Positions 1 to 43,599 of a stretch of 64,000 bases of DNA are shown piece after piece. Positions within the stretch are counted from its first letter, which is position 1. Each line of letters starts with the position of its first letter. The stretch is from Megalonaias nervosa. Taxonomy: Eukaryota; Mollusca; Bivalvia; Unionida; Unionidae. Below the pieces are notes generated by a model. That model did not search any database. It was not told the origin of the DNA and was given only the letters and a program-made list of their open reading frames with translations. Made by a program: the position numbers and the translations under genes. The stretch is from the NCBI GenBank assembly GCA_016617855.1, contig JAECUM010004923.1:1-64000 (forward strand), read 5' to 3'.

Positions 1-625
1 AAACGAACCACTTATCTGTTGAAAATTCCTGCGGGCTATTATTTTAGTGGTCAACATTTGGTGAACGCCATTGCTGACAGGTTCAATTTCATGTTTGGAA
101 AAGCCTTGGAGAAAGCCAGATGTGTCACTATCGAGTACCACAAAATAGCTCGTCGCCTAATGATGAAATTTTCAGAGGACAAAGTATTGGCCATTACATA
201 TTGTCCTTGAATTGTATGACATTTTGGGTGGAGACACCAAGTTGATCAAGATGAAAAACGAAATACCAGCCATGACCAGTAACTTGGATTTTGCGAAATA
301 TTTTTGATTCCCTGTAGAAATGAAGCAAGGACTGAATTTGATGTTTGTGTATTTTGATGTGGTGGAGTACAACGTGGTGGGACACACCTCCGTACCGTTA
401 CTGCGTGTCATTCCTTTCAAAGTGGATTCTGCCACGAACGCTGACGAGGAAGGTGGAAACACCTATCATGTTCACCGCGAATTTGTACATCCTCACTATT
501 TACCCGTCAGTAAGTCGTATTTCGACGCTGTCAACATTACTATAAAAGGAGATCTGGGACAAAATATTCCATTCACCAAAGGGAAAGTCACAGTGAAACT
601 CCATTTTCGAAAACGATTACTCTAA
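1..625 (+). pseudogene. Polinton minor capsid (PX/penton-like) protein, broken, 5' end missing
   Basis: Single-jelly-roll minor capsid protein, presumed to form particle vertices. It aligns closely with the copy B gene at 29740-30640, including the stretches FGKALEKAR, KFSEDKVLAIT, VSKSYF and DLGQNIPFTKGK. Copy A reads from before the window start, shifts frame near 208 through an extra T, and has a TGA near 304 where B has an arginine codon; the remainder is open from 320 to 625. The core-protein gene starts 13 bases downstream. The assignment rests on Polinton gene order and memory of the family. Confidence 0.7.
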
Positions 626-638
626 CCCTTTGTCAGTC

Positions 639-1078
639 ATGTACCCTGTGTACCAAGAAGTCGCTCGATAGCGAGGACATGGTTTAGGTGATATGCTAAA
701 ATCAGCCTTTCGTAAAGTGGCTCCCGTTTTGAAACCGATGGTGACACGGGGATTGCACGCCTTAAAAGATGCCGCGTTGACGCACGGCAGAGAATTTCTC
801 CAAAATGTCATCATTGACAATAAAACCCCAAAGAAGCTTTCTTGAGAGCAGGCAAAAATATCTTGCTTCAAACGGGCAAAGACATTTTGGGCCGAAGAGA
901 AACTCCTATAAATGTCCTGGGCAGTGCCGAGTCAGGCATTCCTGCTTCCCTGACGCCACAGCAAGGACAAGGCAGAAAAAGACGACGAAAACACCCCTTC
1001 AGAGGACTTCACGCCCATAGAGCTAGAAAGACTAAGAAAAGAAAAACTGTCCGAGAGTTAGACGTTTTTGATTATTAA
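639..1078 (+). pseudogene. pVI/pX-like amphipathic virion core protein, broken
   Basis: Small virion protein of the adenovirus pVI/pX type, thought to bind DNA or membranes inside the particle. After the ATG at 639 there is an in-frame TAG at 669, then a glycine-rich amphipathic stretch (GHGLGDMLKSAFRKVAP), a helical middle and, after a frame change near 830, a basic tail with GRKRRRKH ending at 1078. Copy B (29290-29726) keeps the N-terminal part open. It lies between the minor and major capsid genes, as in other Polintons. Confidence 0.65.
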
Positions 1079-1087
1079 AAAAAGAAA

Positions 1088-2398
1088 ATGATGCACCGAG
1101 AGTCTTGTGCTTGTTCCAAGTCGGAACTAGATCTGTTTGCCATGCCACCCACCATGATGACGATGGAAGAATTCTAATTGGTCGAATTTCATCCCGTCTC
1201 CTCTTTGATGGATTCAGCTCCCATCGAGTTTGAAATCAAAGGACAACCCGAAGATTACATAGCAGTTACTTGTATCTGAAACTGAAAGTGATCAAAACCG
1301 ACAACACCAATCCGGGAGCCGATGCCAGAGTAGCTCCCGTCAACAATTTCATGCATTCCTTGTTCAGCGAAGTGTATTTGTACTTGAATAACAAACTGGT
1401 CAGCAGCAGTATGGATAATTACCCTCACCGAGCGTACCTAGAAAATCTCTTGACGTACGGAAAAGAGGCCAAGAACACTTATCTGGATGTTTGCGTGGTA
1501 TGGAAACCTGACACCGCAGGTGAAAACACGTTTAACGACACAGCCGTGACAGCCGATGATAATCCTCACAATGTGGATTTTAACAACCGTCGAAGGAAAA
1601 TCCTGCAAGCTCGTAATTTAGAACTGATGGATCGCTTGCATTTGGACATGTGGTTGCAAGACAAGTATTTGCTCAACGGAGTGGATATTCGCCTCAGACT
1701 CAATCGCGGCAGTGTCGCTTTCCAGTTCATGGCTCATGCCAACGAGTACAAAACCTTCATCCAAGAAGCCAGACTTTACGTGCATCGCGTAGAAGTGTTA
1801 CCTAAAGCGGGAAACGAGATCAGTCAAATATTGAGCAGATCGACCGCCAAGTATCCGATACGACGTGTAGAAGTGAAAACGTTCACCATTGCTGCTGGAC
1901 TCCGATCCAAGATCGAAGATCATCTGTTCCAAGGACAGTTACCCAAACGTTTAATCGTTGGTATCGTCAGTAATGCATCCGTCAACGGAGCCCACGATCA
2001 AACATCCTTTCCAGTTTAAGCACTACAGAGTGCCCAAGATCGAAGTCAGTCGCGATGGCAAGACCTTGTGTACCAGACCCTTCGAACCTAACTTTGCCCA
2101 GAAGAATTACTTGAGATCGTACTTGTCCCTGTACGAAGCTACCGGACAACTAGGAACCAACACCAGTCACGGTATTTCTTACGAGTATTATGTAGGAGGT
2201 TACACTTTGTGGGCTTTTGATTTCACTCTAGATCAAGGGAGCGACGAGGGACATTTCCACCCTATAAAATCCGGTCAACTGCATGTGGATCTTCAGTTTG
2301 CAGAAGCTCTCACCGAGACGGTCAACGTCATCTTGTATGCCGAATTCGATAATACCATAGAAATCAACAGTTTGAGAGAAGTCATTCTAGACTATTAG
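1088..2398 (+). pseudogene. Polinton major capsid (hexon-like, PY) protein, broken
   Basis: Major capsid protein, expected to be a double jelly-roll of roughly 430 residues. The ATG at 1088 is followed by an in-frame TAA near 1175; about 10 bases present in copy B are missing near 1258; a further frame change occurs near 1980-2010. The long open parts (1270-2019 and 1958-2398) contain SNASVNGAHD, KIEVSRDGKTL and LRSYLSLYEATG, which I recognise as the animal family often labelled F54H12.2-like and attributed to Polinton capsids. It stops 5 bases before the next ATG. Confidence 0.7.
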
Positions 2399-2403
2399 AA
2401 ACA

Positions 2404-2880
2404 ATGGAAGACTCCTATCCCTCATTGAATGATAGAGAATCTTTGGACATGGAATGGGAGGATAGCGTGAAAACAGAACCCCAAGACCTAGACAAAGAGA
2501 ACGAGTTAGTGGTCACGTCTAGATGGCCAGAACAAGAACAACATTTAGAGTCCTGTTTTGCTAAACACCTGGCGGATACAATTACGGAATTGAGTAAGAA
2601 ATATTGTTATGGATGTCAAAACGATCATCCCAGTCAAATTCAACACGATAAATGTATGATGATGAGCCAAGAAGAAAAATTGGACGAGTATCTGGACGAC
2701 GCTTGGAGTCTCATCTCGGAAGAAGCAGTGTTGCATGAGTGGTATAAAGACTTGCGTGATCATTCCTGCCCTCCACTGAGTACTCTAGAGATCTATCGCA
2801 TCGAAGCTCTCTTAGCCCAGAGTGCGGAGACAAGGCGAAGAAACGGCTACTTGACAGAGCGTTTCAAACAAAAAGTCTGA
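2404..2880 (+). CDS. Conserved Polinton protein with a Cys/His cluster, function unknown
   Basis: Intact 158-residue acidic protein. It starts 5 bases after the capsid stop, implying co-expression. The N-terminal 50 residues are rich in Asp and Glu; residues about 72-90 hold a Cys/His cluster (CYGCQNDHPSQIQHDKC) that could bind zinc; the C-terminal half is predicted helical. I recall similar proteins beside Polinton capsid genes but know no function. Copy B has lost this gene together with the protease. Confidence 0.6.
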   Translation: MEDSYPSLNDRESLDMEWEDSVKTEPQDLDKENELVVTSRWPEQEQHLESCFAKHLADTITELSKKYCYGCQNDHPSQIQHDKCMMMSQEEKLDEYLDDAWSLISEEAVLHEWYKDLRDHSCPPLSTLEIYRIEALLAQSAETRRRNGYLTERFKQKV

Positions 2881-2931
2881 ATTGAATTGATGACTTATCA
2901 TTACCTGTGAAAAAAACAACACAACAAAAAA

Positions 2932-3351
2932 ATGGATACCTGGGAACTTTATTACCTTTTGAACAATAGTTCGTATACTGCTTCTTGGAATCCTGTTGTG
3001 TGCGCTAAAGATGAACTACCTCATCGCAAACCTCAAGACCATCAAGCTTATCTCATCAACACGGACGAAAGTCATCTCCCAGGAACTCACTGGGTTGCCG
3101 TCTACTTCCCTCAAGAGAATTGTGTGGAATATTTTGATTCGTATGGATTACCCCCTTTGGAAGACGATATCATTGACTTTATGAAAAAAAATGCCCAGAC
3201 GACACGATTCAATAATGTGAAATTACAAGGCACAGATTCCATGGTTTGTGGACAATATTGTGTGTATTTTCTTCATCAATGCAGTCTTGGATATCCTTTA
3301 GAACATTTAGTGACTTATTTTGATCGTCACTCTTCTAGAAATGATGAGTAA
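2932..3351 (+). CDS. Adenovirus-type maturation cysteine protease (Polinton PRO)
   Basis: Intact 139-residue cysteine protease of the adenain / Ulp1-like fold (C5-like), which in Polintons would cleave capsid and core precursors. The catalytic His lies in GTHWVAVY (about residue 59), the acidic residue in YFDSYGLPP, and the nucleophile Cys in CGQYCVYFL (about residue 104). Copy D has the same triad (56219-56657). It lies 51 bases after the Cys/His gene. The start ATG follows an A-rich leader. Length is shorter than adenovirus protease but usual for Polintons. Confidence 0.88.
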   Translation: MDTWELYYLLNNSSYTASWNPVVCAKDELPHRKPQDHQAYLINTDESHLPGTHWVAVYFPQENCVEYFDSYGLPPLEDDIIDFMKKNAQTTRFNNVKLQGTDSMVCGQYCVYFLHQCSLGYPLEHLVTYFDRHSSRNDE

Positions 3352-3544: not shown

Positions 3545-3550
3545 AATAAA
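3545..3550 (+). terminator. Poly(A) signal AATAAA after the protease gene
   Basis: A canonical AATAAA lies 194 bases after the protease stop, followed by a T-rich, GT-rich stretch. This is the ordinary 3' end of the structural gene block and contrasts with the histone-type stem-loops that follow the next three genes. The rest of 3352-3680 contains no ORF I can support. Confidence 0.5.
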
Positions 3551-3683
3551 TGTTGTGTTTTTGAGAAAAATGTGTCTGTCGTTTGTTTTCAAAAAAACAC
3601 TGTGAATATATGCTCTTTGACTTTCTCTCTATCCCTCACCATGACATTCGCAATCATAGCGTTCCGACACTAAAACCTAGTAG

Positions 3684-3722
3684 GGATGTTTTCGATCGCG
3701 TCCGCGTTTGAACCATATAAAG
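3684..3722 (+). promoter_or_regulatory. Repeated core promoter, copy 1 (CGTCCG box plus TATA)
   Basis: A block of the form GGATGTTTTCGAT...CGTCCGCGTTTGAACCATATAAA precedes the small gene whose ATG is at 3768. The same arrangement recurs at 4511-4550 and 5714-5753, each time with the TATA box 53-58 bases before the ATG. That recurrence supports a real RNA polymerase II core promoter. Confidence 0.65.
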
Positions 3723-3767: not shown

Positions 3768-4142
3768 ATGAACATGCCTTCCAGACTAGCCAGGCTGAAC
3801 GAAGCTTACGTGAATTTACATCGTGTCAGGCTAAACCTGATACCTAAGCCTGAAGAGATAGAGAATGTCAGGATGTTAGCCATAGCCCAAGACCTGATAG
3901 AAGAGGTCTTCAGAGAGGAAATCAAGAAGAAACAAGAAGAATGGACAGAGAAGTACAGACTTCAGAAGCGGAGAGAACAGCAACAACAAACAACAACAGC
4001 AGCAACAGCAGCAGCAGCAACAAGAACCAGACAGAGGTTTTGTCGACTGCCGTATGGACACCAAAGAGTTCTCCTTCTCTTTCCGCAGAAGCAGACCGCA
4101 TCGTATAGGAAAGCCTGCTGCCAGACGGGGACGCAATCTTAG
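3768..4142 (+). CDS. Small coiled-coil/polyglutamine protein with histone-type 3' end, gene 1
   Basis: Open for 124 residues from the ATG at 3768, about 53 bases after a TATA box. The N-terminal 75 residues are predicted helical and charged, similar in layout to the genes at 4602 and 5798. A CAG/CAA tract at about 3977-4022 follows. In the frame read here this gives Gln then Thr/Ala; the neighbouring frame gives a longer Gln run and then a strongly arginine-rich tail ending at a TAA at 4147, so the tract has probably slipped. Function unknown; a basic tail suggests nucleic-acid binding. A histone-type stem-loop follows at 4188. Confidence 0.55.
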   Translation: MNMPSRLARLNEAYVNLHRVRLNLIPKPEEIENVRMLAIAQDLIEEVFREEIKKKQEEWTEKYRLQKRREQQQQTTTAATAAAATRTRQRFCRLPYGHQRVLLLFPQKQTASYRKACCQTGTQS

Positions 4143-4187
4143 ACACTAAAAAAGATTCCCATCACTCCCCGTCAACAAAAAAAAAAC

Positions 4188-4226
4188 AGCCCTTTTCAGG
4201 GCTACCACAATACTCTAGAAAAGACA
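4188..4226 (+). terminator. Histone-type mRNA 3' stem-loop plus downstream purine element, copy 1
   Basis: AGCCCT-TTTC-AGGGCT (4188-4203) forms a perfect 6-bp stem with a 4-base loop, preceded by an A-rich leader and followed by ACCACA. Ten bases later comes CTCTAGAAAAGACA (4213-4226). This is the layout of metazoan replication-dependent histone 3' ends: a stem-loop for SLBP and a purine-rich element for U7 snRNA. No AATAAA is nearby. Confidence 0.8.
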
Positions 4227-4255
4227 TACTAATTCAAATTGCCAAAACAAATTTC

Positions 4256-4258
<3 letters not shown>

Positions 4259-4336
<78 letters not shown>

Positions 4337-4358
4337 GTGTGTGTGTGTGTGTGTGTGT
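4259..4358 (+). repeat. (GT)n microsatellite
   Basis: About 100 bases of nearly pure GT with a few interruptions. It directly follows the histone-type 3' element of the preceding gene. A second GT array sits in the same relative place after the next gene. Confidence 0.95.
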
Positions 4359-4510
4359 CTGTGTATATGTTTGAAAAAAGAAGTGTGTCTATAAGCACTT
4401 AACTTTCTCTGTCTTGTCAAATCGTGCATGTCTGTGTTTGTAAGTAAAAAGTCAACGTGAGTGCTTCTTTTAGGTCCGCGCGTTTGATGTGATGGTAAGT
4501 TTTGGTGTTA

Positions 4511-4550
4511 CGGGATGTTTACCTTCACGTCCGTGCTTCAAGCATATAAA
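4511..4550 (+). promoter_or_regulatory. Repeated core promoter, copy 2
   Basis: GGATGTTTACCTTCACGTCC followed by GTGCTTCAAGCATATAAA, with the TATA box at 4544-4550 and the ATG at 4602. It matches the blocks at 3684 and 5714 in sequence and spacing. Confidence 0.65.
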
Positions 4551-4601
4551 CTACGCGATCGTCAGTCTGGTTACCCATCGTCAACGAGACAACTATAAAG
4601 A

Positions 4602-5147
4602 ATGAGCAGATTAAGTAAATTGTTGGAACTCCAAATGCACCTGGAGTATGCCAGACATATTTTAGACGAGCTGACTAAGGAGGCAATACAGGAGGAATCC
4701 AGAATAAAAGAGGAGGAAGAGAAGAGGAAAAAGAAGAAAGAGAAGAAGGAAAGGATCCTGCCACACATCATAATGAGGCCTAAGTGTGAGGTGAAGCCTG
4801 AGGTGAGGACACCTCCACAGGCACTACCAGCTCCACGTCAGCTACAGCCACAACCACAACCACTACCACCAATACCAATAGTCGCTGTCCCCCAGATGGA
4901 AAACTGGGAGGAGATTATGGAGGAGTTGGAGAGACAGCGGCAAGAGTGGGAGCCGCAGCGTCAGCAACATTATCCCCGGCTGCAGAATAGAAGACAGAGG
5001 GAAGTCTTCACCATCCCTCAGAGTGAAAACTGGGATGATGACGCCAGTCAACCCCCCTCTGCACTTCCAACAACACAAATCAATTGGGAGAATGACTGGA
5101 GCAGACGTTGTGTGTGTGGTGCCCGGCCTGGAAGGTGTCACCGTTAA
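4602..5147 (+). CDS. Small coiled-coil, proline-rich protein with histone-type 3' end, gene 2
   Basis: Intact 181-residue protein. Residues 1-55 form a charged helix ending in a Lys/Glu run; residues 60-95 are proline- and glutamine-rich; two related segments (MENWEEIMEEL and SENWDDDASQ) follow; the tail is Arg/Cys-rich (WSRRCVCGARPGRCHR). It is the second of three tandem genes that share a promoter block and a histone-type 3' stem-loop (here at 5174). No catalytic motif is seen. The basic Cys-containing tail recalls small DNA-packaging proteins, but function is unknown. Confidence 0.6.
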   Translation: MSRLSKLLELQMHLEYARHILDELTKEAIQEESRIKEEEEKRKKKKEKKERILPHIIMRPKCEVKPEVRTPPQALPAPRQLQPQPQPLPPIPIVAVPQMENWEEIMEELERQRQEWEPQRQQHYPRLQNRRQREVFTIPQSENWDDDASQPPSALPTTQINWENDWSRRCVCGARPGRCHR

Positions 5148-5173
5148 CCAGGTGCATTTGGAGTTGGAAAAAC

Positions 5174-5212
5174 AGCCCTTCTCAGGGCTAACCAGATCTC
5201 TAGAAAAGAGAC
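5174..5212 (+). terminator. Histone-type mRNA 3' stem-loop plus downstream element, copy 2
   Basis: AGCCCT-TCTC-AGGGCT (5174-5189) is a perfect 6-bp stem with a 4-base loop, followed by AACCA and then TCTCTAGAAAAGAGAC (5197-5212). Spacing and the GAAAAGA core match copy 1. It begins 26 bases after the stop codon, close to the short distance seen in histone mRNAs. Confidence 0.8.
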
Positions 5213-5278
5213 ACTATTCAATTTGCCAATTGGTGTGAATGTGAAGTAGTGTGACTATAAATACTCACTTCTTTACTG

Positions 5279-5342
<64 letters not shown>
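5279..5342 (+). repeat. (GT)n microsatellite
   Basis: Pure GT run of about 62 bases, immediately upstream of the 45-bp minisatellite at 5398. Confidence 0.95.
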
Positions 5343-5346
<4 letters not shown>

Positions 5347-5397
5347 GTTCGCACTCGTTTGTGAGAATAGTATAGTGTGCATGTTTTATGCATTCTC

Positions 5398-5700
5398 GTT
5401 CGTTGGTGAGGATAGTAAATATGGTGTGTTTTATGCATTGTCGTTCATTGGTGTGGATAGTAAATAGGTGTTTGTTTTATGCTTTCTCATTCGTTGGTGA
5501 GGATAGTAAATATGGTATGTTTTATGCATTGTCGTTCATTGGTGTGGATAGTAAATAGGTGTTTGTTTTATGCTTTCTCATTCGTTGGTGAGGATAATAA
5601 ATATGGTATGTTTTATGCATTCTCGTTCGTTGGTGTGGATAGTAAATAGGTGTGTGTTTTATGCATTCTCGATCGTTGGTGTGGATAGTAAATAATATGT
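5398..5700 (+). repeat. Minisatellite, about 45-bp unit with GGATAGTAAAT core
   Basis: About seven tandem units of the form TTCGTTGGTGWGGATAGTAAAT followed by a GTGTTTTATGC-type segment. Units differ by a few bases. A related GGATAGTAAT-type repeat occurs at 15850-16020 beside relic E, so this minisatellite seems to belong to the arm of the Polinton lineage. Confidence 0.85.
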
Positions 5701-5713
5701 GAAGTGAGTGTAA

Positions 5714-5753
5714 GGGATGTTTTCGTTCACGTCCGTCCTTGAAGTATATAAAA
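5714..5753 (+). promoter_or_regulatory. Repeated core promoter, copy 3
   Basis: GGATGTTTTCGTTCACGTCC followed by GTCCTTGAAGTATATAAA, TATA at 5745-5753, ATG at 5798. This is the cleanest of the three copies of the block. Confidence 0.65.
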
Positions 5754-5797
5754 GCATAGCGTTCGTCATTCGCGCCATTCAACGCTGAATATAAAAA

Positions 5798-6133
5798 ATG
5801 GCTAGCAACATGGAGAGAATGATAAGATTGCTGGAGGTGGTAGACACACTAGGCATGGTGGAGGAGATGCTACTTAGAATGCAACTTGGGGCTTATAGCC
5901 CGCACAGATTGGCTATGGAAATCAACAATTTAAAGAGAGGAAAGGAGATATTAAATGAGATGATTAGAATTGAAAAGGACGAAAAGGAAGATTTAGAAGA
6001 CAAAAGGAGGATGAGGGAGTGGAAAGAAAAAATAGAAAAGGAAGAAGAAAATGAAAAAAGGAAGAAACAGGAAAAGGAGGAGGAGAAGGAAAAACAGGAG
6101 GAGGAAAAGAATAAGAAGAAGAAAAAAGTGTAG
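5798..6133 (+). CDS. Small Lys/Glu-rich coiled-coil protein with histone-type 3' end, gene 3
   Basis: Open for 111 residues. Residues 1-45 hold a helix with VVDTLGMVEEML and a segment PHRLAMEINNLKRGKEILNEMI that is nearly identical to the copy B gene at 26476-26847. The rest is a Lys/Glu coiled coil. In copy B the protein ends with an RRWWR-type basic tail; in A the same tail lies just beyond the stop in another frame, so A is probably slightly shortened. The 3' stem-loop is at 6199. It is the outermost gene before the terminal repeat. Function unknown. Confidence 0.6.
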   Translation: MASNMERMIRLLEVVDTLGMVEEMLLRMQLGAYSPHRLAMEINNLKRGKEILNEMIRIEKDEKEDLEDKRRMREWKEKIEKEEENEKRKKQEKEEEKEKQEEEKNKKKKKV

Positions 6134-6198
6134 GACAGAAAATAAGACGTTGGTGGAGAAATAGAAGAACTTAGAAGAAGACGAAGAAAAAACCCAAA

Positions 6199-6236
6199 GG
6201 CCCTTTTCAGGGCCACTCTACTGCCTCGAAAAGATT
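6199..6236 (+). terminator. Histone-type mRNA 3' stem-loop plus downstream element, copy 3
   Basis: CCCAAA precedes GGCCCT-TTTC-AGGGCC (6199-6214), then CACTCTA and GCCTCGAAAAGATT (6223-6236). The leader, the 6-bp stem, the UUUC loop and the purine element match the metazoan histone consensus almost base for base. This is the best example of the seven in the window. Confidence 0.88.
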
Positions 6237-15496: not shown

Positions 15497-15610
15497 TGGA
15501 AGAGAAGAATCTACGTGGAGAAGCAAGTGTGCTTTAAACATGTTTTACTCTACAGACAGCCTGTGAGAAGATTGCGGAGAAGAACCGTGAAGTGGTGTGG
15601 TACGTGTTAA
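15497..15610 (+). pseudogene. Relic E: C-terminal part of small basic protein ending CxxC
   Basis: 38 codons open to a TAA at 15608, starting WKRRIYVEKQVC and ending in an Arg-rich stretch and CGTC. It matches the copy B gene at 43393-43530 (WKRRIYVKKQGC ... CPLC) over its whole length, with the same stop position and a histone-type 3' element after it. No start codon is evident upstream in frame. Conservation between two diverged copies argues that this tiny ORF is a real gene. Confidence 0.65.
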
Positions 15611-15637: not shown

Positions 15638-15676
15638 GGCTCTTTACAGGTGCACCCAGGTCTCTTGAAAAGATAG
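15638..15676 (+). terminator. Degenerate histone-type 3' stem-loop with intact downstream element
   Basis: GGCTCT-TTAC-AGGTGC (15638-15653) keeps the loop and half the stem, followed by ACCCA, the canonical cleavage-site flank, and by TCTCTTGAAAAGATAG (15661-15676). The position 28 bases after the stop codon matches copy B (43558). Confidence 0.6.
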
Positions 15677-26018: not shown

Positions 26019-26430
26019 AGTAGTAATGTGGGGCACAATAGCGACAATGGAAATCCCAGTCAAAAAGGTTGTGGGCAAAGATAGCGACAAGGGGAATTTA
26101 ACACTGGGAAATATTGGGTCTGTATAGCGAACAAAAATTATTGGGCCTGTATAGCGAAAAACAAATACTAGGCCTGTACAGCGACAAATATTGGGTCTGT
26201 ATAGCGACAATAGGAATGGAACAATGTTGCAAGTGGCTGACCTCAATCAGGTCAAACAGGGACAGCAGGGTTAAAAAGCTATAACTCTTGGTGGGGAGGA
26301 TATGATCAGTTAGTTCAGCAGTGAAACTATACGAATAATAACTTTCTGCGGGCGGGGAAACAAAGAAACAAACGAACACAAAACAAAGACACAAGTAGGG
26401 CAAGGAGAGTAAATATCTTTTCAAGACATA
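26019..26430. repeat. Left terminal inverted repeat of Polinton B, with iterons
   Basis: The reverse complement matches 43700-43806 (TTATTATTCGTA, GCTGTCCCTGTTTG, GATTGAGGTCAGC) and continues into 63965-64000 (CACTTGCAACATTGTT). The outer half carries four to six copies of GGGYCTGTATAGCGAMAA (26040-26215), suggesting binding sites for a terminus-recognising protein. Confidence 0.7.
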
Positions 26431-26451
26431 TGAGTGGCCCTGAAAAGGGCC
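26414..26451 (-). terminator. Histone-type 3' stem-loop plus downstream element (B, left end)
   Basis: On the minus strand CAAA precedes GGCCCT-TTTC-AGGGCC (26451-26436), then CACTCA and TCTTGAAAAGATAT (26427-26414). Perfect stem. It terminates the coiled-coil gene at 26476-26847 and matches the A copy at 6199. Confidence 0.85.
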
Positions 26452-26475
26452 TTTGAGTTTCTTCTACTTTTTCTT

Positions 26476-26847
26476 CTATTTACTCTCCTCCCTTCTACTT
26501 CTCCACCATCTTTTCAGTTTTGTCTTCTTTTTCTTTCCATCCTTTTCCTCCTTCTCCTTCTCCTCCTCCTCTTTCTTCCTCTTCTCATTCGCCTCTTCTT
26601 TTTCTATCCTTTCGTCCCAAGCTCTCATTTGGATTTTATCTTCTTCCTCCTCTTTCTCCTCCTTTTCCTGTTTTATCATTTCGTTCAATATGCCTTTCCC
26701 TTTCCTTAAATTGTTGATCTCAATAGCCAATCTGTGTGGGCCATAAGACTTAAACTACATTGCAACCAACATCTCCTCCACCACACCTAGGGTATCTACT
26801 ACCTCCTGCAATTTCATCATTTTCTGCAAATGGTTGTTTCTCGCCAT
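26476..26847 (-). pseudogene. Lys/Glu-rich coiled-coil protein with RRWWR tail (B ortholog of 5798 gene)
   Basis: ATG at 26847, 50 bases after a TATA-like TCTATATAA. VVDTLGVVEEML and PHRLAIEINNLRKGKGILNEMI match the A gene. Codon 31 is TAG where A has a sense codon, so this copy is interrupted; the remainder is open to 26476 and ends in KRWWRSRREESK. It points outward and ends in a histone-type stem-loop. Function unknown; the basic tail suggests DNA binding. Confidence 0.65.
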
Positions 26848-26896
26848 GGCTTATTATTCAATGTTGAATGGTGCGAATAGAAGAAGAAGAACTTTG

Positions 26897-26906
26897 AATT
26901 ATATAG
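26897..26906 (-). promoter_or_regulatory. TATA box of the 26476-26847 gene
   Basis: TCTATATAAT on the minus strand, about 52 bases before the ATG. This is the same spacing as in the three promoters of copy A. Confidence 0.5.
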
Positions 26907-26909
26907 ACG

Positions 26910-28060
26910 TTCGCACATTAATTGCATGTGCCTTTTGTTAATGCCTGCACAGCAGGCTGCTAATTATTCCTGGGGAAAGGAATTCGTGCATCATCCCCCA
27001 GGCGTTACTTCACTCAAAGAGTGCTGCTAATCAAGCCATCAGGTCGTGGTTCAACTAAGTCCCAAACGACCTGATTGAATACGCCAGCTGGTGAACTGAC
27101 TTGAATACTGAGGGGTAAAGTGCTTAACTTTTAACTTCAACAGTACACTCTTCAGTAAAAGAGGAGACTCGTTGGCATGCAGGAACTACTGGACTATCTT
27201 TCTTCATCCCGTAGGGTCTCCAGTCCGCCCATGCACCATGTAATACCATGCACCCACAGCCACAACCACCACAGCACCAGCTGGCGCTCTGAGGCTATCT
27301 TGAGTGGGAATTGACCCAACACGCACTCAAGAATATTTAGTGTGCAGTCCAGCCTACAGCACTACCAGGTGTCAACCGAAGCAGTATGAGACGCCAGTCG
27401 CGATTGGTCGGTGACTATGACGTCTCATTGGGACACCTGGTATTTAGACGGGTGGAAATCGTTCCACATCTCCGTCTAGTACGAGAGTCAGAGTGAAGAA
27501 ATAGAGGAAAAGGAACTCGGCAGCTGGCGCGAACGCAATGGATGTCGACAAAGCCCTGAAACGCCAGTCCGTACTTAATTTTCAAATTCGATCCAGTTAT
27601 ACTAATGGACATACAAATAATCCAATAATGTGTAAGCTACTTTTGCAATTAACCAAATTAAACAAGTTACTAATTTAATTGTTGATTACATTCGAAGTTG
27701 GAATTTAGTGTACAAAGTGTACATAAATATTTCTATAAAAAAATACCAATCAGCTGAGTCAAAATGACTCATGCATTTTGTATCACGCATAATAAACATA
27801 GAGGAAATTTGGATGGTGGTAACAAAAGGATCAAATCTGAGCTACAACATAGAGATATAATCGAAAACGGTTTTCAAGCCAAAGTGAAAACCTAATGGCA
27901 ATTTCGGTCTCCACTCTTTAGCCCTTAGAAGGGCTGATATGGGATAATATATAGGCTTCGAAGTAGCCGGCAGCTTCCATTCTCTTCTGGTATGGATTCT
28001 GTAGGATCCGAGGTCCACCATATCCGCAACGCACCAGTTCAAGTGTTCATCTCGGACTGT
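26910..28060. other. Segment replacing part of Polinton B, nothing recognised
   Basis: Copy A has the major capsid C-terminus, the Cys/His gene, the protease and two small genes at this position. Here they are replaced by sequence I cannot assign. A minus-strand frame at 27842-28063 (MVDLGSYRIHTRREWKLP) may be part of an unknown gene. The region is more GC-rich than its surroundings. Confidence 0.4.
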
Positions 28061-28449
28061 CAAATAAGTTGGGTATTTTCCTGTAAAAGGTACTCGAGGT
28101 CTGGACTGCTGGCCGGTTTCTCATGAACCAAATCAGGTGTTGGCGAAGATGGTGGTGATGGTGAAGGTAGAGGTGGGGGAGATGGAGTAGATTGTTCTTT
28201 TTCCCTCACCTCAATTTTCTTCTCTTTTGGTATCTGTGATGCAGCCTGGCTTGTACTTGTTGTTTTAGATTCAACCGGCTGTGCAGGCGGTGTGGGTAGG
28301 AGTCTCGTTGGTAAGTCTTGTCCATGTTGAGACGGTCTTCTTTGACGGCTCCGTCCAGGTTGCATTGCTAACAATACCAACGATTGAACGATCGGGTAAC
28401 TGTCCTTGGAACAGATGATCTTTAATCTTGGATTGGAGTCCAGTGGCAA
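28060..28449 (-). CDS. Proline/serine-rich reading frame at the capsid breakpoint
   Basis: Open for 129 codons. Its first part overlaps the end of the truncated capsid in another frame; from about 28340 it reads a Pro/Ser/Lys-rich sequence (STPSPPPLPSPSPPSSP). Composition resembles the linker of the B protein at 32287-32793. It may be a real disordered protein or a fortuitous frame in low-complexity DNA. Confidence 0.3.
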   Translation of the reverse strand: MPLDSNPRLKIICSKDSYPIVQSLVLLAMQPGRSRQRRPSQHGQDLPTRLLPTPPAQPVESKTTSTSQAASQIPKEKKIEVREKEQSTPSPPPLPSPSPPSSPTPDLVHEKPASSPDLEYLLQENTQLI

Positions 28450-29259
28450 TGGTAAAAGTTTTCACTTGCACGCGTCATATCAGATACTTGGCAGTCGTTC
28501 TGCACAAAGTGTGACTGATGTCGTTTCCCACCTTAGGTAACACTTCCACGCGGAGTCCGTAAAGTCTGGCTTCTTGTATGATGGTTTTGTACTCGTTGGC
28601 ATGAGCCATCAAATGGAAAGCGGTACTGCTGAGATTCAGTCACAGGTGGATATCCAGTCCGTTCAGCAAATACTTGTCTTGCAACCACATGTCCAAATGC
28701 AAACGATCCATCAGTTCTAAACTACGTCCTTGAAGGATTTTCTTTCCACGGTCGTTAAAGCCCACATTGTGAGGATCGTCATTTGCTGTTAGGGCTGTGT
28801 CGTTAACCTTGTCCTCGCTTTCTATGTCAGGTTTCCATACCATGCAAGCATCCAGATGAGTATTCTTGGCCTCTTTTCCGTACCTCAAGAGATTTTCCAG
28901 GTACGTTCGGTAAGGGTAAGTATCCATGCTACTTCTGACCAGTTTGTTATTCAAGTGCAGATCCACTTCGCTGAACAAGAAATGCATGAAATTGTTGACG
29001 GGAGCTACTCTAGCATCGGCTTCTGGAGCGCTGTCGTCCGTTTTGATCACTTTGACTTTCAGTACAAGTAACTGCTATTCAGATCGATGTAATCTTTGGG
29101 CTAACCTTTGATTTCAAACTCGATGGGCGCCGAATCCGTCAAAAAGGAGACGGGATGAAATTGTACCCATTGGGATTCTTGCATCGTCATTATGGTGGGT
29201 GACATGGCAAACAGATCCAGTTCCGACTTGGAACATGCACAAGACTCTCGGTGCGTCAT
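28350..29259 (-). pseudogene. Polinton major capsid protein, C-terminally truncated (B)
   Basis: ATG at 29259. It aligns with the A capsid throughout (LYLNNKLV-type segment, DRLHLDMWLQDKYLLNG, KTFTIATGLQSKI, FQGQLP). A TAG interrupts it near 29103, another stop follows near 28640, and homology ends after VSNAT near 28350, where sequence unrelated to the A capsid begins. The last third of the protein, about 130 residues, is missing. Confidence 0.75.
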
Positions 29260-29289
29260 TTTTGCTCTCTCTCTCTGTTTGTGATTTAA

Positions 29290-29726
29290 TAATCAAAAAC
29301 GTGTAATTCTCGGACGGTTCTTCTTTTCTAAGTCTTTCTAGCTCTGGGGGTATAAAGTCGTCTGGAAGGGTGTCTTCGTCGTCTATTTCTGACTTGTCCT
29401 TGCTGTGGCGTCAGGGAAGCAGAAATGTCTGACACGGCAGCGTCCGGGGCATTTGTAGGAGTTTCTTGTTAGCAGAAAATGTCTTTGCCCGTTTGAAGCA
29501 AGATATGTTTTCCTGGTCTCAAGAAATCTTCTTTGGGGTTTTGTTTGTCGATTATGACATTTTGGAGAAATTCTTTGCCTTGCGTCAAAGCGGCATCTTT
29601 CAAGGCGTGCAATCCTCGTGTCACCATCGGTTTCAAAACGGGGGCCACCGAACGAAACGCCGATTTCAGCATATCTCCTAAACCACGTCCTCGTTGTTGG
29701 GCGACTCCTTGGCACACAGGATACAT
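29290..29726 (-). pseudogene. pVI/pX-like amphipathic core protein (B)
   Basis: ATG at 29726 (MYPVCQGVAQQRG), then GRGLGDMLKSAFRSVAPVLK, open for 85 codons to a TAA at 29469. In A the frame continues to a basic tail; the corresponding B sequence runs on to about 29290. It lies between minor and major capsid genes. It is the best view of the N-terminus of this family in the window. Confidence 0.65.
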
Positions 29727-29739
29727 GTCTTTCAAGTTC

Positions 29740-30640
29740 TTAGATTAATCGTTTTTGAAAATGGAGTTTCACTGTGATTTTCCTTTGGTGAATGGAATAT
29801 TTTGTCCCAGATCTCCTTTTATAGTAATGTTGACAGTCTCGAAATACGACTTACTGACGGGCAAATACAATTCTCGGTGAACGTGATAGGTGTTTCCACC
29901 TTTCTCGTCAGCGGTCGTGGCAGAATCCACTTTGAAAGGAATGAAACGCGGTAACGGTACAGAGGTGAGTCTCACCACGTTGTACTCCACCACATCGGAG
30001 TATACAAAGATCAAATTGAGTCCTTGGTTCATTTCTACCGGGAATCGAACATATTTCGCAAAATCCAAGTTGCCAGTAATGGCTGGTGTTTCGTTTTTAA
30101 TCTTGATCAAGTTGGGGTCTCCACGCAAAATATCATACGATTCAGGAGAAAATGTAATGGCCAACACTTTGTCCTCTGAAAATTTTACTAGTAGGCGACG
30201 TGCCGCTTTATGGTACTCGAGGGTAACGCTTTTTCTGGCTTTCTCCAACGCTTTACCAAACTGTGCATTGAACCTGTCAACAATCGTGTTCACCAAATGT
30301 GGGTCGCTAGAATAATAGCCTGGGGAAATTTCAACAGATAGGTGAACCGTTTAGTTTTGGGGCCCTGTGTTTTCATGCAGTCACCCGCAGTTGTGCGTTC
30401 GTCCCAGTTTTGTTGCACTTCCTCGTCATGAATTTCCACTGTAAAAGTGTTTTGATTTTCAATGATATTTTTTATTTGTGTAGGGTGAATCATTTCCACC
30501 AAAGCCACTTCCCAGTGGGCTTCGTGATTCAATTGGATGGTCTGAGGCAATCTGGCCGTGAAACAGCATAATGTGTTGTGTTGAAACACCTCTATGGAAC
30601 TGTCACTGGGTAACGCTAAGTAAAATTGGTTATTTATAAT
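29740..30640 (-). pseudogene. Polinton minor capsid (PX/penton-like) protein (B)
   Basis: The frame begins near 30640 (FYLALPSDSS, then LPQTIQLNHEAHWEVALVEM), a typical N-terminus of the family as I recall it. A missing base near 30318 and another near 29775 split the frame; the middle part 29769-30296 is open. The A copy supplies the same protein with different breaks, so the two decayed independently. No ATG is clear at the 5' end. Confidence 0.7.
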
Positions 30641-31018
30641 TCCAGAGTTCTGGTGTCCAAAGGGCCGCTGGAAGTCAGAGGAGTGTCCAAAAGACGATTG
30701 GTGTTATTGTTGTTTGGGTGGTCACTGTTGGGAGGGTGATTGACGCTGGGCAGAAGACTCCCGTTGTTACTGTAAGAAGAGTATTTCAGGGAAGGATTGG
30801 GGAGAAGGTAACTGATGCAACTGCTCAGTAAAATGGTCCACAATTGTTTGTCTCCTTGTTGCAAACTGAAATTGGCAATGGCAAACGATTTGCGTTTTAG
30901 GCACACGTTCTCCACACCACACACGCAAGGGTTGCTTTTGTAGATCTTGCACAGAAGAACTGGGTGATGGAGTTGTCACTGTGGTAGCTGAGGTTGTGTT
31001 GAAGGGCATAATGGTCAC
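30637..31018 (-). pseudogene. Unknown small protein between integrase and minor capsid (B)
   Basis: ATG near 31012 (MPFNTTSATTVTTPSPSSS), frame change near 30925, then CGVENVCLKRKSFAIANFSLQQG and an Asn/Pro/Ser-rich tail to 30637. A few Cys residues and Thr/Ser-rich start but no recognised domain. It overlaps the start of the minor capsid frame by a few bases. Confidence 0.4.
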
Positions 31019-31019
31019 T

Positions 31020-32149
31020 TCTTTTTAAACTCGATGACTTGCGAAGCGTCGATCCAAGAATCAAAACTGGGGGGATAACATTTCCAACGTACTTTGACTT
31101 CTTTGACACGTAATTTTCCAGTTTTTCGGGTTCTACGTTCGAGAATGCTTTCAATCTCGTACACTTCATCTTCTTTTTGGTCACGCGTTGTAATTCAGGC
31201 AAGTAAAACGATCCTTTTAACACTTCCCCATTCATGTCTTCCGATTTTGAAGACGGCAGGATGACGGCCACGCACTCGTCTAGTGACACGAAACAATTCG
31301 GTGGTCCAGTTGGGTAAGTAACCTTTGTCGAAAATGCGTTTGGTTTTGCCAATGCGCACCCAATCTCAGCTGCCAACACTTCACCTTTCTTGGGGACAGC
31401 CACAGTCGGGGACGTACCAAAGAAGCGCTCAAAGACGGTCACTTCGTTGTCGGGAGTCACTTCTTGGGGTGCACATCCTATGCTCCGATGGAAAGATTGG
31501 TTGTACGCTTGGACCAGGTGCGGTATGACGTCGATGTACTTGAGAGTGTGTTGATGGGTAAATATTTCCACATGCGTTCTTTCAAGGTGCGTTGAAAACG
31601 TTTCAAGACGCTGTCTTTGGTTTCAGGATTCTCGTTGGTGAACAAAAATGAATGCTTCGTTTCTTTAATTCTTTTTGGAAAGCTTGGCTCAGAAATTCGG
31701 TGCCATTGTCGGTTTGCCATCGAAAAGGATGACGACCACTATATTTCAACATCAATTTGAGGGCTCGCACTAACTCACTGCTCGATTTGGAAGTCAATGG
31801 CACGACCCAATTAAATCTGGAAAAGATGGCGATAAAACAAAACAAGTATTTGAAGCCAAGATTGTAGGTGGCCAAATGAAAGACATCAGCTAAATCGGCT
31901 TGCCATTGATGATCGATGCCCTCTACTCGGGCGCGACTTCTGGAAAATTTTCGTCGAATGGGTTTGTGTAAGGTGTACGTGGCTTGTTCTTGTAACCATC
32001 CTTGCACTTGAGGTAAACGGACACCTTTCAGTTGGGTTTTGGCAGCACGATACAATTTCTGAACTCCTCCGTAACCTGCAGGATGGGCTGGATCGTAGTA
32101 AATGCTGGCTAACACCTCCATCAGCAATTGTTTTTAATAGGTCACTCAC
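31020..32149 (-). pseudogene. Polinton integrase with chromodomain, catalytic Glu replaced (B)
   Basis: Retroviral-type DDE integrase that inserts the element. Order: N-terminal region with YYDPAHPAGYGGVQKLYRAAK, core with WQADLAD (first Asp) and WQTDNGTEF (second Asp), then KDSVLKRFQRTLK near 31600, where the catalytic Glu of the usual V-E-R-F box is Lys (AAA). A C-terminal chromodomain is readable near 31030-31100 (VRWKCYPPSFDSWID). At least three frame changes (near 32115, 31640 and 31110). Either the gene is dead or the Lys is a late substitution. Confidence 0.8.
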
Positions 32150-32286
32150 TCTTCAAGGATGCTACACTGGATGAGGCGAGTTGGTGGTTTGGAAACGGCT
32201 TTACTTGTCCGATGTGCTACGGGAGTGGAAATCGAGGGTAGTGGTGGTGGTGGTGGCGGTAATGGGATGGCTTTTGTCTTCTTTCT

Positions 32287-32793
32287 TTATTTCACTTCTG
32301 CTTTCCTTTTTTTTTTTTTGACTTCTGTCCAAGGAGGAGTGGACATCATCTTTTTAACCCAAGCTTTGAGTTTTTCTCGTTGGGGTGTAGGAAAAGGGGT
32401 CAACAAGGACGCTGAAATCTTACTATGGATGGCTGCTGACGGTGTTTGAAAGACTTCTTGTGCCCCTTCTTCCTCACGCATCCGTGGGGCTGCGTCTGTC
32501 TTCACCGCTAGGGGTGGTAGTGGTGGTGGCGATGGACTTTTCATCAGAGCCTTAAAATCTTTCAGAGTTGGCAGAGCTGTTTCGTCTAAATCTTTCTGGT
32601 GAAAGAGGTGCAGCCGTTGCAACATTTGACCGTACCGTTGCGATTTTTCCGTTTCTGACAAATTGCTGAGATCCATCAACGACAGCAATTCGCATTGTAA
32701 CTGGGACATTTTGGTCAAATGAGGGTTCGGAGGTAAATGCTGACTCCGTTGTTCTTGCCAACGATGGCATTCCATCCATCGTTTGCAAAGCAC
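32287..32793 (-). CDS. Conserved Polinton protein, helical with proline-rich linker
   Basis: 168 residues open from 32793. The N-terminal 80 residues are helical with LLSLMDLSNLSETEKSQRYGQMLQRL; a Pro-rich linker follows (SPSPPPLPPL); the tail is basic and ends KKKKRKAEVK. I recall similar proteins next to the integrase in animal Polintons, with no known role. Upstream sequence to 32914 is open in another frame, so the true start is uncertain. Confidence 0.5.
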   Translation of the reverse strand: MLCKRWMECHRWQEQRSQHLPPNPHLTKMSQLQCELLSLMDLSNLSETEKSQRYGQMLQRLHLFHQKDLDETALPTLKDFKALMKSPSPPPLPPLAVKTDAAPRMREEEGAQEVFQTPSAAIHSKISASLLTPFPTPQREKLKAWVKKMMSTPPWTEVKKKKRKAEVK

Positions 32794-32910
32794 TAAAGCC
32801 AGTTTTCATCCTTCCATCAGATTCCAAAGGTCGCGTCTGAGATCTTTTGACTCCAGAAGTCCCTTTTATCTTCTTGACCCATTTTATCTTGGACCCATAG
32901 GGAAAACACT

Positions 32911-33291
32911 TCACACGACTCCTTCCAGCATAGCTCCCGCTATTCTTTTGACAAGAGGTCCTATCAGGGGTAAAAATCCTCCCGTTGTATCAACATTTTT
33001 TTCTTTCTACGGATGGGAATTTTCTTTTGGACCACTTGGCGAAGAACGTGTCGATGTCTGGCTAAGCATTGCTTCTGGTGTTTAGAGAAAGGTATCGTTC
33101 CTTTCAAGACATTCAGACAGCATTCGCTCACGGTATCGATGACATCTTTGGAGGCGGTTTGAATAAGTTGTTTTCGCATGGGTGGAGGGGCTTTGGACAG
33201 GAAGGACATATTTGGCTAAACGAGGAGGCAGTCCTTTCCTTTTCTTTCCATTTTTGGCAAGAGAGTGGTGTGCACTTCTTTTAGAGGACAT
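32911..33291 (-). pseudogene. Conserved Polinton basic/hydrophobic small protein (PC-type)
   Basis: ATG at 33291; frame changes near 33205 and 32965. Central motif: RKQLIQTASKDVIDTVSECC followed by LNVLKGTIPFS and a basic RRKKKML stretch, then a hydrophobic GGFLP-LIGPLV tail in the next frame, ending at 32911. I recognise it as a widespread family of invertebrate Polintons with an SEC-LNVL box and GGFL tail, of unknown function, possibly a core or membrane protein. Confidence 0.6.
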
Positions 33292-33329
33292 CTTTTTGGT
33301 TCAGGGGCACAAAAATACATCTGAAGTCC

Positions 33330-33610
33330 ATGGCTTGACATGCATCCTTTTATCTTATTTTTTGTTTGGTGGTAATAGACCTAGAAAACATCTGAGAAGC
33401 TGTGGTAACAAGACAGGAATAAAAAATCCTCCCCTTTTGGTTGCACAGTATTTTGTTTGGACGACTGGGTCTTTTCAGAGGTAGACGTCGATGCTTCGCT
33501 AAGCGTTTTTTCGGATGACGAGACTGTTCTTTTGTTTTTCCTTTTCCTTTTTGGACAGGAGAATGGGGGTGGTGATGGTGTGCACTTCTTTGAGGGGAGA
33601 TCTTTGCGCG
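33330..33610 (-). pseudogene. Degenerate tandem duplicate of the PC-type gene
   Basis: SPQRSAHHHHPHSPVQKGKGK parallels SSKRSAHHSLAKNGKKRKG of the intact neighbour, and KRLAKHRRLPLKR with a KILCNQKGRIF-type end parallels its basic region and GGFL start. The SEC-LNVL core is missing. It overlaps the 3' end of the next gene in another frame. Confidence 0.5.
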
Positions 33611-34545
33611 TTCAGGAGCACAAGAAACACTGATACCCATAGTTTCCCCAGGTGTTTATATGCTAGAATGAGTCGCCACTGATTGTCTTTACGTCGTATC
33701 AACTTGATGACAGGAATCACGCGTCGTGAAGGGGTTCGCAAAGGACTAAATCGGGACAGTTCTTGCTTGGATAAATCCAGTAATCTTTGCAACGTGCCCG
33801 ATCTCTCTTGGACTTTGATTTTGGAGGCAGGTACTTTGTGAGCAGCTGCCAGTGCAGCTAAAGAGGAGGATGTTCTTGGCGAAACGGGTTTCCATTGTTT
33901 CATCAAATTAGGAAAAACGGGTGTGAAATTGGGCTTGGCTGGCATCACCAGCAACGGAGAAGAGGAAGAACCTGAGGCTACTGGAGACGCGGTCACCGTC
34001 GATGCAGGTCGTGATTTGCGAATGTAAGATTGCACCCTGGCCGGAGTGCCTCTCTTGCTGGTAGAAGTTGTTTTCTGGGGACTTTCCCTTTTCTGGGATC
34101 TTTTCTTTTTCTGTGGCTGTGACCTGGTCTTGACACCACTGCTCTTTTTCTTCGGCTTCTTCTGGGTACCTTTGGGCCGGGCAGTGGCTTTTTTCTTGTG
34201 GAGGACTTTGGGGCCATTAGGATCCCATTTTAGGAGGGAGCGAATGATGACACCTCCTAGAGAACCGCTACCTCCAGGTTTCAAAATGTTTTTTGGTTTG
34301 AGTGTCGATGCGGAGATATGCCAGTTCCGTGAAGACTACATTGTTTGTCTCAAAAAAGCGTTTGGTATGATGTGGAATGTGAATCATGCCTTGCAGTAAT
34401 TGATGTCGTGTCACCGTAAACCATCGTAAGATTTCTTTGAGACTGGCTTCTATGACACGAGCACGCATTTGTGGATTTTTTTGGGACTGATGCCGTACAA
34501 GGCACGAATCAATTTGACGGAAAGATGAGACTGAAGGGACGTCAT
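33499..34545 (-). pseudogene. Large basic, Ser/Pro/Lys-rich protein, possible DNA core protein (B)
   Basis: ATG at 34545 (MTSLQSHLSVKLIRALYGIS); frame changes near 34490 and 34300 lead into a 261-codon open stretch. It has a helical N-terminus (ARVIEASLKEILRWFTVTRHQLL) and then a long Lys/Arg/Ser-rich region (KKKATARPKGTQKKPKKKS), followed by VIPVIKLIRRKDNQWRLI. The composition is that of a condensing core protein. It overlaps the end of the ATPase reading frame. Confidence 0.5.
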
Positions 34546-34559
34546 GTTGACGATGTGTG

Positions 34560-43590: not shown

Positions 43591-43599
43591 GGATTTTTG

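Follow-up and report, generated by a model that had tools for sequence, protein, structure and literature searches.

Histone-type hairpins at the 3' ends of non-histone Polinton genes suggest that the element borrows host histone-message machinery

Several non-histone genes of a Polinton lineage in Megalonaias nervosa end in a histone-type hairpin, an arrangement which suggests that the element borrows the host machinery for histone messages. To our knowledge, the histone hairpin with its downstream signal is thought, in animals, to be reserved for the histone messages of DNA replication. The window analysed, 64,000 nt of the forward strand of contig JAECUM010004923.1 (assembly GCA_016617855.1), contains seven such sites, all at gene 3' ends of one Polinton lineage and all in the sense orientation, which span five gene types and three copies (A, B and D). 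These comprise every stem-loop named in a first-pass annotation of the DNA (4188, 5174, 6199, 26451, 42071, 43558 and a degenerate example at 15638).

The copies examined are decayed, and the Polinton/Maverick (adintovirus-like) gene set of integrase, packaging ATPase, PolB, capsid protein and protease is found in copies A and B taken together. This set defines Polintons (PMC12220804, PMC11071296). The core features are:

1..3351, plus strand: copy A core, penton/minor capsid remnant to protease
1234-2016 and 1955-2395, plus: copy A major capsid protein, split over two frames
2404-2880, plus: copy A ORF between capsid protein and protease
2932-3351, plus: copy A adenovirus-type protease (Peptidase_C5, E 0.0042, below the Pfam cut-off)
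3545..3550, plus: AATAAA of the copy A protease unit, which has no stem-loop, 194 nt past the stop
26236..43806, minus: element B, with integrase, ATPase and PolB inside inverted remnants

Element B is bounded by 35-nt inverted remnants (26236-26270 and 43772-43806), and copy B exceeds the Pfam cut-off for PF00665, PF04665 and PF03175 (rve integrase, Pox_A32-type ATPase and viral PolB, respectively). Identification of the copy A capsid protein, which has neither a Pfam match nor a solved-structure match at E 0.001, rests on relatives named F54H12.2-like; one piece of it has 599 protein matches, mollusc 'F54H12.2-like' proteins among them. The rve integrase, Pox_A32-type ATPase, viral PolB, adenovirus-type protease and F54H12.2-like capsid protein are shared with Polinton/Maverick elements and adintoviruses, from which the present lineage differs in having two 3'-end classes within one element. 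The other Polinton of the window (43.8-63.9 kb) is without the stem-loop, unlike the lineage studied here. The stem-loop units are as follows:

3683..3721, plus: promoter block of copy A gene 1, TATA at 3716
3768..4142, plus: copy A gene 1 ORF; an Arg-rich tail extends to 4149 in a different reading frame
4188..4203, plus: gene 1 histone-type stem-loop, AGCCCT-TTTC-AGGGCT, Rfam 28.9 bits
4218..4224, plus: gene 1 HDE-like GAAAAGA, 14 nt past the stem
4233..4245, plus: gene 1 third conserved 3' block, TTCAAATTGCCAA
4512..4550, plus: promoter block of copy A gene 2, TATA at 4545
4602..5147, plus: copy A gene 2 ORF, 181 aa
5174..5189, plus: gene 2 histone-type stem-loop, AGCCCT-TCTC-AGGGCT, Rfam 24.3 bits
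5203..5209, plus: gene 2 HDE-like GAAAAGA, 13 nt past the stem
5217..5229, plus: gene 2 third conserved 3' block, TTCAATTTGCCAA
5714..5752, plus: promoter block of copy A gene 3, TATA at 5747
5798..6133, plus: copy A gene 3 ORF, 111 aa
6199..6214, plus: copy A gene 3 histone-type stem-loop, GGCCCT-TTTC-AGGGCC, 36.7 bits, above gathering
6228..6234, plus: copy A gene 3 HDE-like GAAAAGA, 13 nt past the stem
26476..26847, minus: copy B gene 3, with an internal stop; its reading frame closes 24 nt short of the stem
26436..26451, minus: copy B gene 3 histone-type stem-loop, Rfam 40.3 bits, E 2e-8
26416..26422, minus: copy B gene 3 HDE-like GAAAAGA, 13 nt past the stem
42310..42702, minus: copy B gene 4, frameshifted in the window, 16 homologues
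42056..42071, minus: gene 4 histone-type stem-loop, GGTCCT-TTTC-AGGATC, with a compensatory change, 25.5 bits
42036..42042, minus: gene 4 HDE-like GAAAAGA, 13 nt past the stem
42016..42028, minus: gene 4 third conserved 3' block, TTCATTTTGCCAA
43393..43530, plus: ORF of gene 5, short and Arg-rich (LWKRRIYVKKQ...RKRRRSVRC), at element B's right end and closing 27 nt short of the stem
43558..43573, plus: gene 5 stem-loop with one G-U pair, Rfam 26.3 bits
43587-43593, plus: gene 5 HDE, decayed to GAACGGA, 13 nt past the stem
15497..15610, plus: what remains of gene 5 in the degenerate copy D (WKRRIYVEKQ...RRTVKWCGTC), closing 27 nt short of the stem
15638..15653, plus: copy D degenerate stem-loop, absent from the Rfam matches
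15667-15673, plus: copy D intact GAAAAGA

Genes 1 to 3 of copy A are compact TATA/ORF/stem-loop units; at blastn E 0.01 the non-coding sequence that they share is confined to two blocks, the promoter and the stem-loop/HDE region. As the first-pass annotation had it, these three consecutive genes end in a 6-bp stem with a 4-nt loop followed by GAAAAGA, although the purine element, placed there about 10 bases past the stem, lies at 13-14 nt in six of the seven sites; in the seventh GAACGGA occupies the position at 13 nt, making the gap 13 nt six times and 14 nt once. The stop-to-stem gaps are 45, 26 and 65 nt for genes 1, 2 and 3 of copy A, 24 nt for gene 3 of copy B, 27 nt for gene 5 of both B and D and ∼30 nt for gene 4, the end of which is defined by homologues. 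The stem-loop expected for gene 4 of copy D (near 14.5 kb) is absent. Sites 26436 and 43558, one at each end of a single element, might not count as independent cases.

A scan of the whole window with cmscan and all 4,227 families of Rfam release 15 matched Histone3 (RF00032) to six of the seven sites, with scores of 40.3, 36.7, 28.9, 26.3, 25.5 and 24.3 bits and library-wide E-values between 2e-8 and 0.02. As the gathering score of RF00032 is 34 bits, two of the seven sites pass it (40.3 and 36.7 bits). All six Histone3 matches in the 64 kb are on the sense strand at gene 3' ends of this lineage. In the alignment of the seven stems 95.2% of 42 cells are paired, compared with 64.3% at most in register-slid versions, and two stem pairs are changed on both sides. 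The stem is the minimum-energy structure at five of the seven sites, the exceptions being 43558 and 15638. The AAAGA core is 15-16 nt past the stem in six of seven; the distance in a mouse H2a substrate is 16 nt.

The window holds eight such stems, compared with a mean of 0.85 and a maximum of 4 in 200 windows simulated with a first-order Markov model, and stem plus GAAAAGA occurs five times here and in none of the 200. The latter combination is found nowhere else in the window; a stem with a purine core is absent from Polinton C, from 16.8-26.2 kb, from the cores of A and B and, within element B, from 26.5-42.0 kb. A palindrome at 27920-27935 (AGCCCT-TCTA-AGGGCT) was dismissed as a site, as it has neither an HDE nor an Rfam match. 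A genome-contig scan yielded two distant Polinton contigs, L001 and L002, in bacterial MAGs; neither carries such a stem-loop, and L001 seems to be without either element end. A covariance model (R1) was built from the seven sites, which makes its matches to them circular; applied to the 84,127 bases of the window, L001 and L002, it gave no further site scoring more than 15 bits. Searches of IMG/VR viral contigs by capsid protein, gene 4 alignment or a GGC-type stem-loop plus HDE pattern gave no match, and a stem-only pattern hit 13 contigs; the stems of genes 2 and 4 fall outside both patterns. None of these 13 reaches Histone3 gathering, has a tblastn match to the 18 window Polinton proteins or carries GAAAAGA within 40 nt; one (L005) has AAAAGA 6 nt past the stem, which indicates that a nearby purine run can arise by chance.

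Comparison of gene 3 in copies A and B points to selective conservation of the 3' module. The stem-loop and HDE are identical at 27/28 positions, compared with 70/128 in the adjoining non-coding DNA and 245/336 in the ORF, and GAAAAGA is kept at 7/7 with a spacer identical at 8/13; Fisher tests on this pair concern regions picked after the alignment was seen. At the sequence level the SLBP/U7 layout claimed by the earlier annotation is well borne out: the sites match the Rfam model, their stems covary, the spacing is fixed, the module is selectively conserved, and each site lies in sense at a gene end. The data show these features directly, together with the sequence and structure of the module.

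The sites share with metazoan replication-dependent histone genes the 6-bp stem, the 4-nt U-rich loop, the U-A closing pair and A/C-rich flanks, together with a purine HDE 15-16 nt downstream, proximity to the stop and a compact one-ORF TATA unit. They differ in that the proteins are not histones, the carrier is a mobile virus-like element and an extra conserved TTCAWWTTGCCAA block lies 28-30 nt past three of the stems. The stems are GGCCCT or AGCCCT, compared with a consensus of GGCUCU in Rfam; GGCCCT also occurs in the histone mRNAs of C. elegans, according to PMC1924863.

On these grounds the terminal Polinton genes are probably built like replication-dependent histone genes, with mRNAs that would be SLBP/U7-processed, poly(A)-less and S-phase-linked. 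We infer from the sequence that SLBP and U7 act on these transcripts, that the mRNAs are cleaved, lack poly(A) and are timed to S phase, and that the element benefits. Each copy A unit would consist of a TATA box, a short 5' UTR, a single ORF, an SLBP-type stem-loop (24-65 nt past the stop in the copies measured) and an HDE at constant spacing. SLBP would bind the transcripts that host pol II makes from these genes, and U7 snRNA, the Sm site of which is AAUUUGUCU, would pair with their GAAAAGA, its 5' end being predicted to pair with CUCUNGAAAAGA. The U7 snRNP/CPSF73 would cut a few nt past the stem, and the resulting poly(A)-less mRNAs would accumulate and be translated during S phase, the time at which the element would be replicated by its own PolB.

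It is also conceivable, but unlikely, that SLBP binds the stem-loops without cleavage, the genes being polyadenylated further on and the stem-loop modulating translation or decay. Consistent with this view, AATAAA occurs 561 nt past the gene 1 stop and 449 nt past the gene 2 stop, and pairing of the sites with the 5' end of human U7, a stand-in for the host's, is energetically no better than that of random window 36-mers (background fraction 0.10 to 0.87 across the seven sites), a result that lends U7 use no support. However, GAAAAGA at a fixed downstream distance is expected for U7 processing only, its complete retention between the two copies of gene 3 exceeds that of the spacer, and no AATAAA or ATTAAA occurs within 700 nt past genes 3A, 3B, 4 and 5. 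Neither signal is present between stop and stem in any of the six stem-loop units examined.

The encoded proteins are not histones, in agreement with the earlier annotation. No Pfam histone match was found for genes 1-4, for gene 5 (copies B and D) or for the 15 homologues in the gene 4 alignment, and tblastn of H2A, H2B, H3 and H4 against the window gave nothing at E 1. Gene 4 encodes a conserved non-histone protein with 16 homologues, 15 of them 193-230 aa long and the other 132 aa. The view that these are packaging-type genes gains no support: genes 1-5 have no Pfam match at cut-off, and one gene 4 homologue was modelled as two long helices at low confidence (mean pLDDT 64.6, pTM 0.22), a structure judged too weak for a fold search. 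A search with the gene 3 protein returned 73 candidates, none at E 0.001. The Arg-rich tails described for most of the proteins are present in gene 5 and in gene 3 of copy B, but those of copy A genes 1 and 3 are not in frame with the N-terminus.

These data bear on the improbable scenario in which the stem-loops were taken from host histone loci and are carried as functionless passengers. Stem-loop and HDE jointly form a known histone module, and Polinton-like viruses are described in PMC12220804 as taking rRNA sequence from their hosts. Nevertheless, capture is unsupported, because the core histones are absent by tblastn and the module follows five gene types in three copies, always in sense and at short range from the stop where measured; the compensatory stem changes, the elevated identity of the module over adjoining DNA and the lack of Pfam matches in the neighbouring proteins also count against it. 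That the hairpin acts as DNA when the element is replicated, packaged or integrated, with the histone likeness secondary, is very improbable: two sites do lie near the two ends of element B, but those of copy A genes 1 and 2 and of B gene 4 are internal, all seven follow gene ends, the loop, flanks and strand-specific downstream purine block fit the histone RNA model, and Polinton C and 16.8-26.2 kb have none.

The novelty suggested earlier calls for one reservation. Six Rfam matches to the histone 3'UTR stem-loop in Polinton-like viruses and virophages, from a scan of 8,300 PLV genomes at gathering cut-offs, had already been counted in PMC12220804; its non-coding RNA section gives them without discussion of gene position, HDE, spacing, conservation or function. 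Among the papers searched, none was found that joins the phrase 'histone stem-loop' with Polinton, although others may be hidden by their wording, because the phrase misses PMC12220804 ('histone 3'UTR stem-loop'). Element-borne non-histone genes with a complete histone module would break the rule for pol II genes as worded in PMC6303110. If SLBP/U7 processing of these mRNAs is real, it would offer a natural test of minimal processing signals and explain how a self-synthesising transposon ties expression to host DNA replication.

The protease just upstream of gene 1 uses AATAAA instead, as the first reading held. With the stem-loop units this raises the prospect, for which the chances seem about even, of a two-class 3'-end system, in which the terminal regulatory/DNA-binding genes would form an SLBP/U7-processed, poly(A)-less S-phase regulon and the capsid/protease genes would be polyadenylated; the former would be the first such non-histone mRNAs. 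Under such a system the histone mRNA pathway would let a virus-like element read the cell cycle of its host. Some viruses, flaviviruses among them, likewise dispense with poly(A), but in other ways (PMC12846552).

The remains of several Polintons lie within the window, and all seven histone-type stem-loops found there stand 3' of a gene in the sense orientation.

Polinton copies in the window
1-6250, + strand: copy A, with penton and major-capsid remnants, ORF 2404-2880, an adenovirus-type protease, then three small genes (genes 1-3; 3768-4142, 4602-5147 and 5798-6133)
About 14.0-15.7 kb: copy D, degenerate
About 26.2-43.8 kb, mostly - strand: copy B, with capsid remnants, rve integrase, Pox_A32-type ATPase, PolB and more small genes at both ends
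Right end of the window: copy C, a different Polinton; its inverted repeats are 43845-44367 / 63365-63927, and Pfam recognises its capsid protein as double-jelly-roll

The sites, at 4188, 5174, 6199, 15638 and 43558 (+) and at 26451-26436 and 42071-42056 (-), each comprise a 6-bp stem and a 4-nt loop (AGCCCT-TTTC-AGGGCT; AGCCCT-TCTC-AGGGCT; GGCCCT-TTTC-AGGGCC, twice; GGTCCT-TTTC-AGGATC; GGCCCT-TTTC-AGGGTC; and the degenerate GGCTCT-TTAC-AGGTGC). A scan of the whole window against all 4,227 Rfam families identified six of the seven as the histone 3' UTR stem-loop (24.3-40.3 bits, whole-library E-values from 2e-8 to 0.02), two of them reaching the gathering score, and returned no further histone stem-loop up to E = 5. 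Stems of this class number eight, against a mean of 0.85 and a maximum of 4 in 200 Markov windows, while stem plus GAAAAGA occurs five times and in none of the 200. Of the 42 cells in the stem alignment, 95.2% are paired, against 64.3% at best when the partners are slid, and two pairs have changed on both sides; the hairpin is the minimum-energy structure at five of the seven sites, another fold being predicted at 43558 and 15638. The purine histone downstream element (HDE), GAAAAGA, follows after 13 nt at six sites and 14 nt at one, and has decayed to GAACGGA at 43558. Six sites keep its AAAGA core, 15-16 nt beyond the stem; for mouse H2a, the substrate sequence in PMC7026596 shows 16 nt.

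A third conserved block, TTCAWWTTGCCAA, is found 28-30 nt beyond the stems of genes 1, 2 and 4 (4233-4245 (+), 5217-5229 (+) and 42016-42028 (-)), and nowhere else in the window as an exact match; the gene 3 copies of A and B retain YTTGCC alone at a similar place. A palindrome resembling the copy A stems (27920-27935 (-), AGCCCT-TCTA-AGGGCT) has neither HDE nor Rfam support, and is possibly a decayed copy B unit or a chance occurrence.

The distance from stop codon to stem is short: 45 nt for gene 1 (38 nt for the Arg-rich frame), 26 nt for gene 2 and 65 nt for gene 3 in copy A. Gene 3 of copy B ends 24 nt before its stem, and the small gene 5 leaves a 27-nt gap in B and D alike. Gene 4 of copy B (42310-42702, -) is an apparent exception: as read in the window, its stop lies 254 nt from the end of the stem. 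Of its 16 homologues, however, 15 measure 193-230 aa and share a C-terminus (GLGRGKGLRQLK..SRS) that the window encodes in another frame, stopping about 30 nt short of the stem. The window gene has thus suffered a frameshift, and its stem originally stood at the usual distance. The protease gene has no stem-loop and carries a candidate AATAAA signal 194 nt beyond its stop. In the six stem-loop units examined, AATAAA/ATTAAA was never found before the stem and, in four, not within 700 nt; beyond the stops of genes 1 and 2 it lies at 561 and 449 nt.

Only two blocks are common to genes 1-3 of copy A (blastn, E 0.01): the stem-loop/HDE block and a 39-nt promoter block ending in ATATAAA, which has three matches in the window against 0.00 expected and is not retained by copy B's gene 3. 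With TATA box, ORF and stem-loop packed closely together, the unit has a layout similar to that of a replication-dependent histone gene. The two gene 3 copies have diverged (ORF identity 245/336), as have their 3' UTR (30/49), the stem-HDE spacer (8/13) and the sequence beyond (32/66), while identity is 20/21 in the stem-loop with its flank and 7/7 in the HDE. For regions picked after the alignment was viewed, stem-loop plus HDE differs from adjacent non-coding positions (Fisher p = 7e-6) and from the ORF (p = 0.002). Two conserved motifs separated by a spacer free in sequence but fixed in length is the pattern that SLBP plus U7 would impose.

The suggestion that the elements are captured host histone loci found no support, human H2A, H2B, H3 and H4 giving no tblastn match in the window at E 1. 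A looser stem search (copy C, 16.8-26.2 kb, the cores of A and B, and two distant Polinton contigs, L001 and L002) gave eight stem-like matches in all, none with a purine core nearby. A covariance model built from the seven sites found no additional site in the window, L001 or L002. In IMG/VR (2.9 million contigs) the stem-loop plus HDE pattern for GGC-type stems had no match; 13 matches to the stem alone included none at the Rfam Histone3 gathering score and none with GAAAAGA within 40 nt, one having AAAAGA 6 nt past the stem (the gene 2 and gene 4 stems fall outside both patterns).

Other results do not favour a U7-dependent module. The 5' end of human U7, a stand-in for that of the host, pairs with the seven downstream regions no better than with 36-mers drawn at random from the window (background fractions between 0.10 and 0.87); for mouse H2a the duplex energy is -16.9 kcal/mol. 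The stem-loop is absent from L001 and L002, although L001 seems to cover neither element end, and none follows gene 4 in degenerate copy D.

Genes 1-3 encode small, highly charged proteins, and gene 5 a short, Arg-rich one. The product of gene 4 is conserved, its 16 homologues being named at most 'hypothetical protein', and combines a long stretch of helix with a basic C-terminal region; it has no match at the Pfam cut-off, and the structure predicted for a homologue is of low confidence. The first-pass annotation spoke of packaging-type genes, which was a guess; they could just as well encode nuclear DNA-binding or regulatory proteins.

By extension from the known histone mRNA pathway, the module probably works as follows: each unit would be transcribed by pol II, the stem bound by SLBP and GAAAAGA by the U7 snRNP, and CPSF73 would cut 3-6 nt past the stem; the mRNA, lacking poly(A), would be exported and translated mainly in S phase. 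Through such processing a self-replicating element with its own PolB would gain expression in DNA-replicating cells, such as the germ line or early embryo. Co-occurrence of histone stem-loops with Polinton-like viruses is already tabulated in PMC12220804; searches of open-licence literature found no description of the gene-end module itself, with its HDE, fixed spacing, sequence constraint and recurrence behind five types of gene.

Among the copies themselves, B is bounded by 35-nt inverted remnants (26236-26270 / 43772-43806, 88.6% identity), and the penton and capsid proteins of copy C have weak matches at 23.8 and 19.5 kb. For the capsid piece of copy A there are 599 protein matches, including, among the 120 listed, 'F54H12.2-like' proteins of Mercenaria, Ostrea, Crassostrea and Lineus, which makes a molluscan host probable. 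L001 (1-11769) and L002 (1-8358), binned into bacterial MAGs (a tubeworm endosymbiont and Breoghania sp.), are probably of animal origin and probably represent host contamination, as does a protein (P0010) labelled Candidatus Thiodiazotropha. Copy B also contains a BIR (inhibitor of apoptosis) domain (PF00653, E 2e-12; 36658-37236, -), a gene without stem-loop convergent with gene 4 (41389-41792, +) whose repeated motif we take to be zinc-knuckle-like, and, between genes 4 and 5 at its end, a predicted tRNA-Pro (CGG; 42801-42873, +), either a tRNA or a tRNA-derived repeat. Nested in copy C is an LTR retrotransposon (45037-51729; repeats about 5716 apart), presumably gypsy-like from its pol order. 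A short foldback hairpin with GGGGGGTGGG arms (43845-43960) lies inside the copy C inverted repeat, and its counterpart at the other end (63798-63928) is a weak miRNA-family match (E 0.77).
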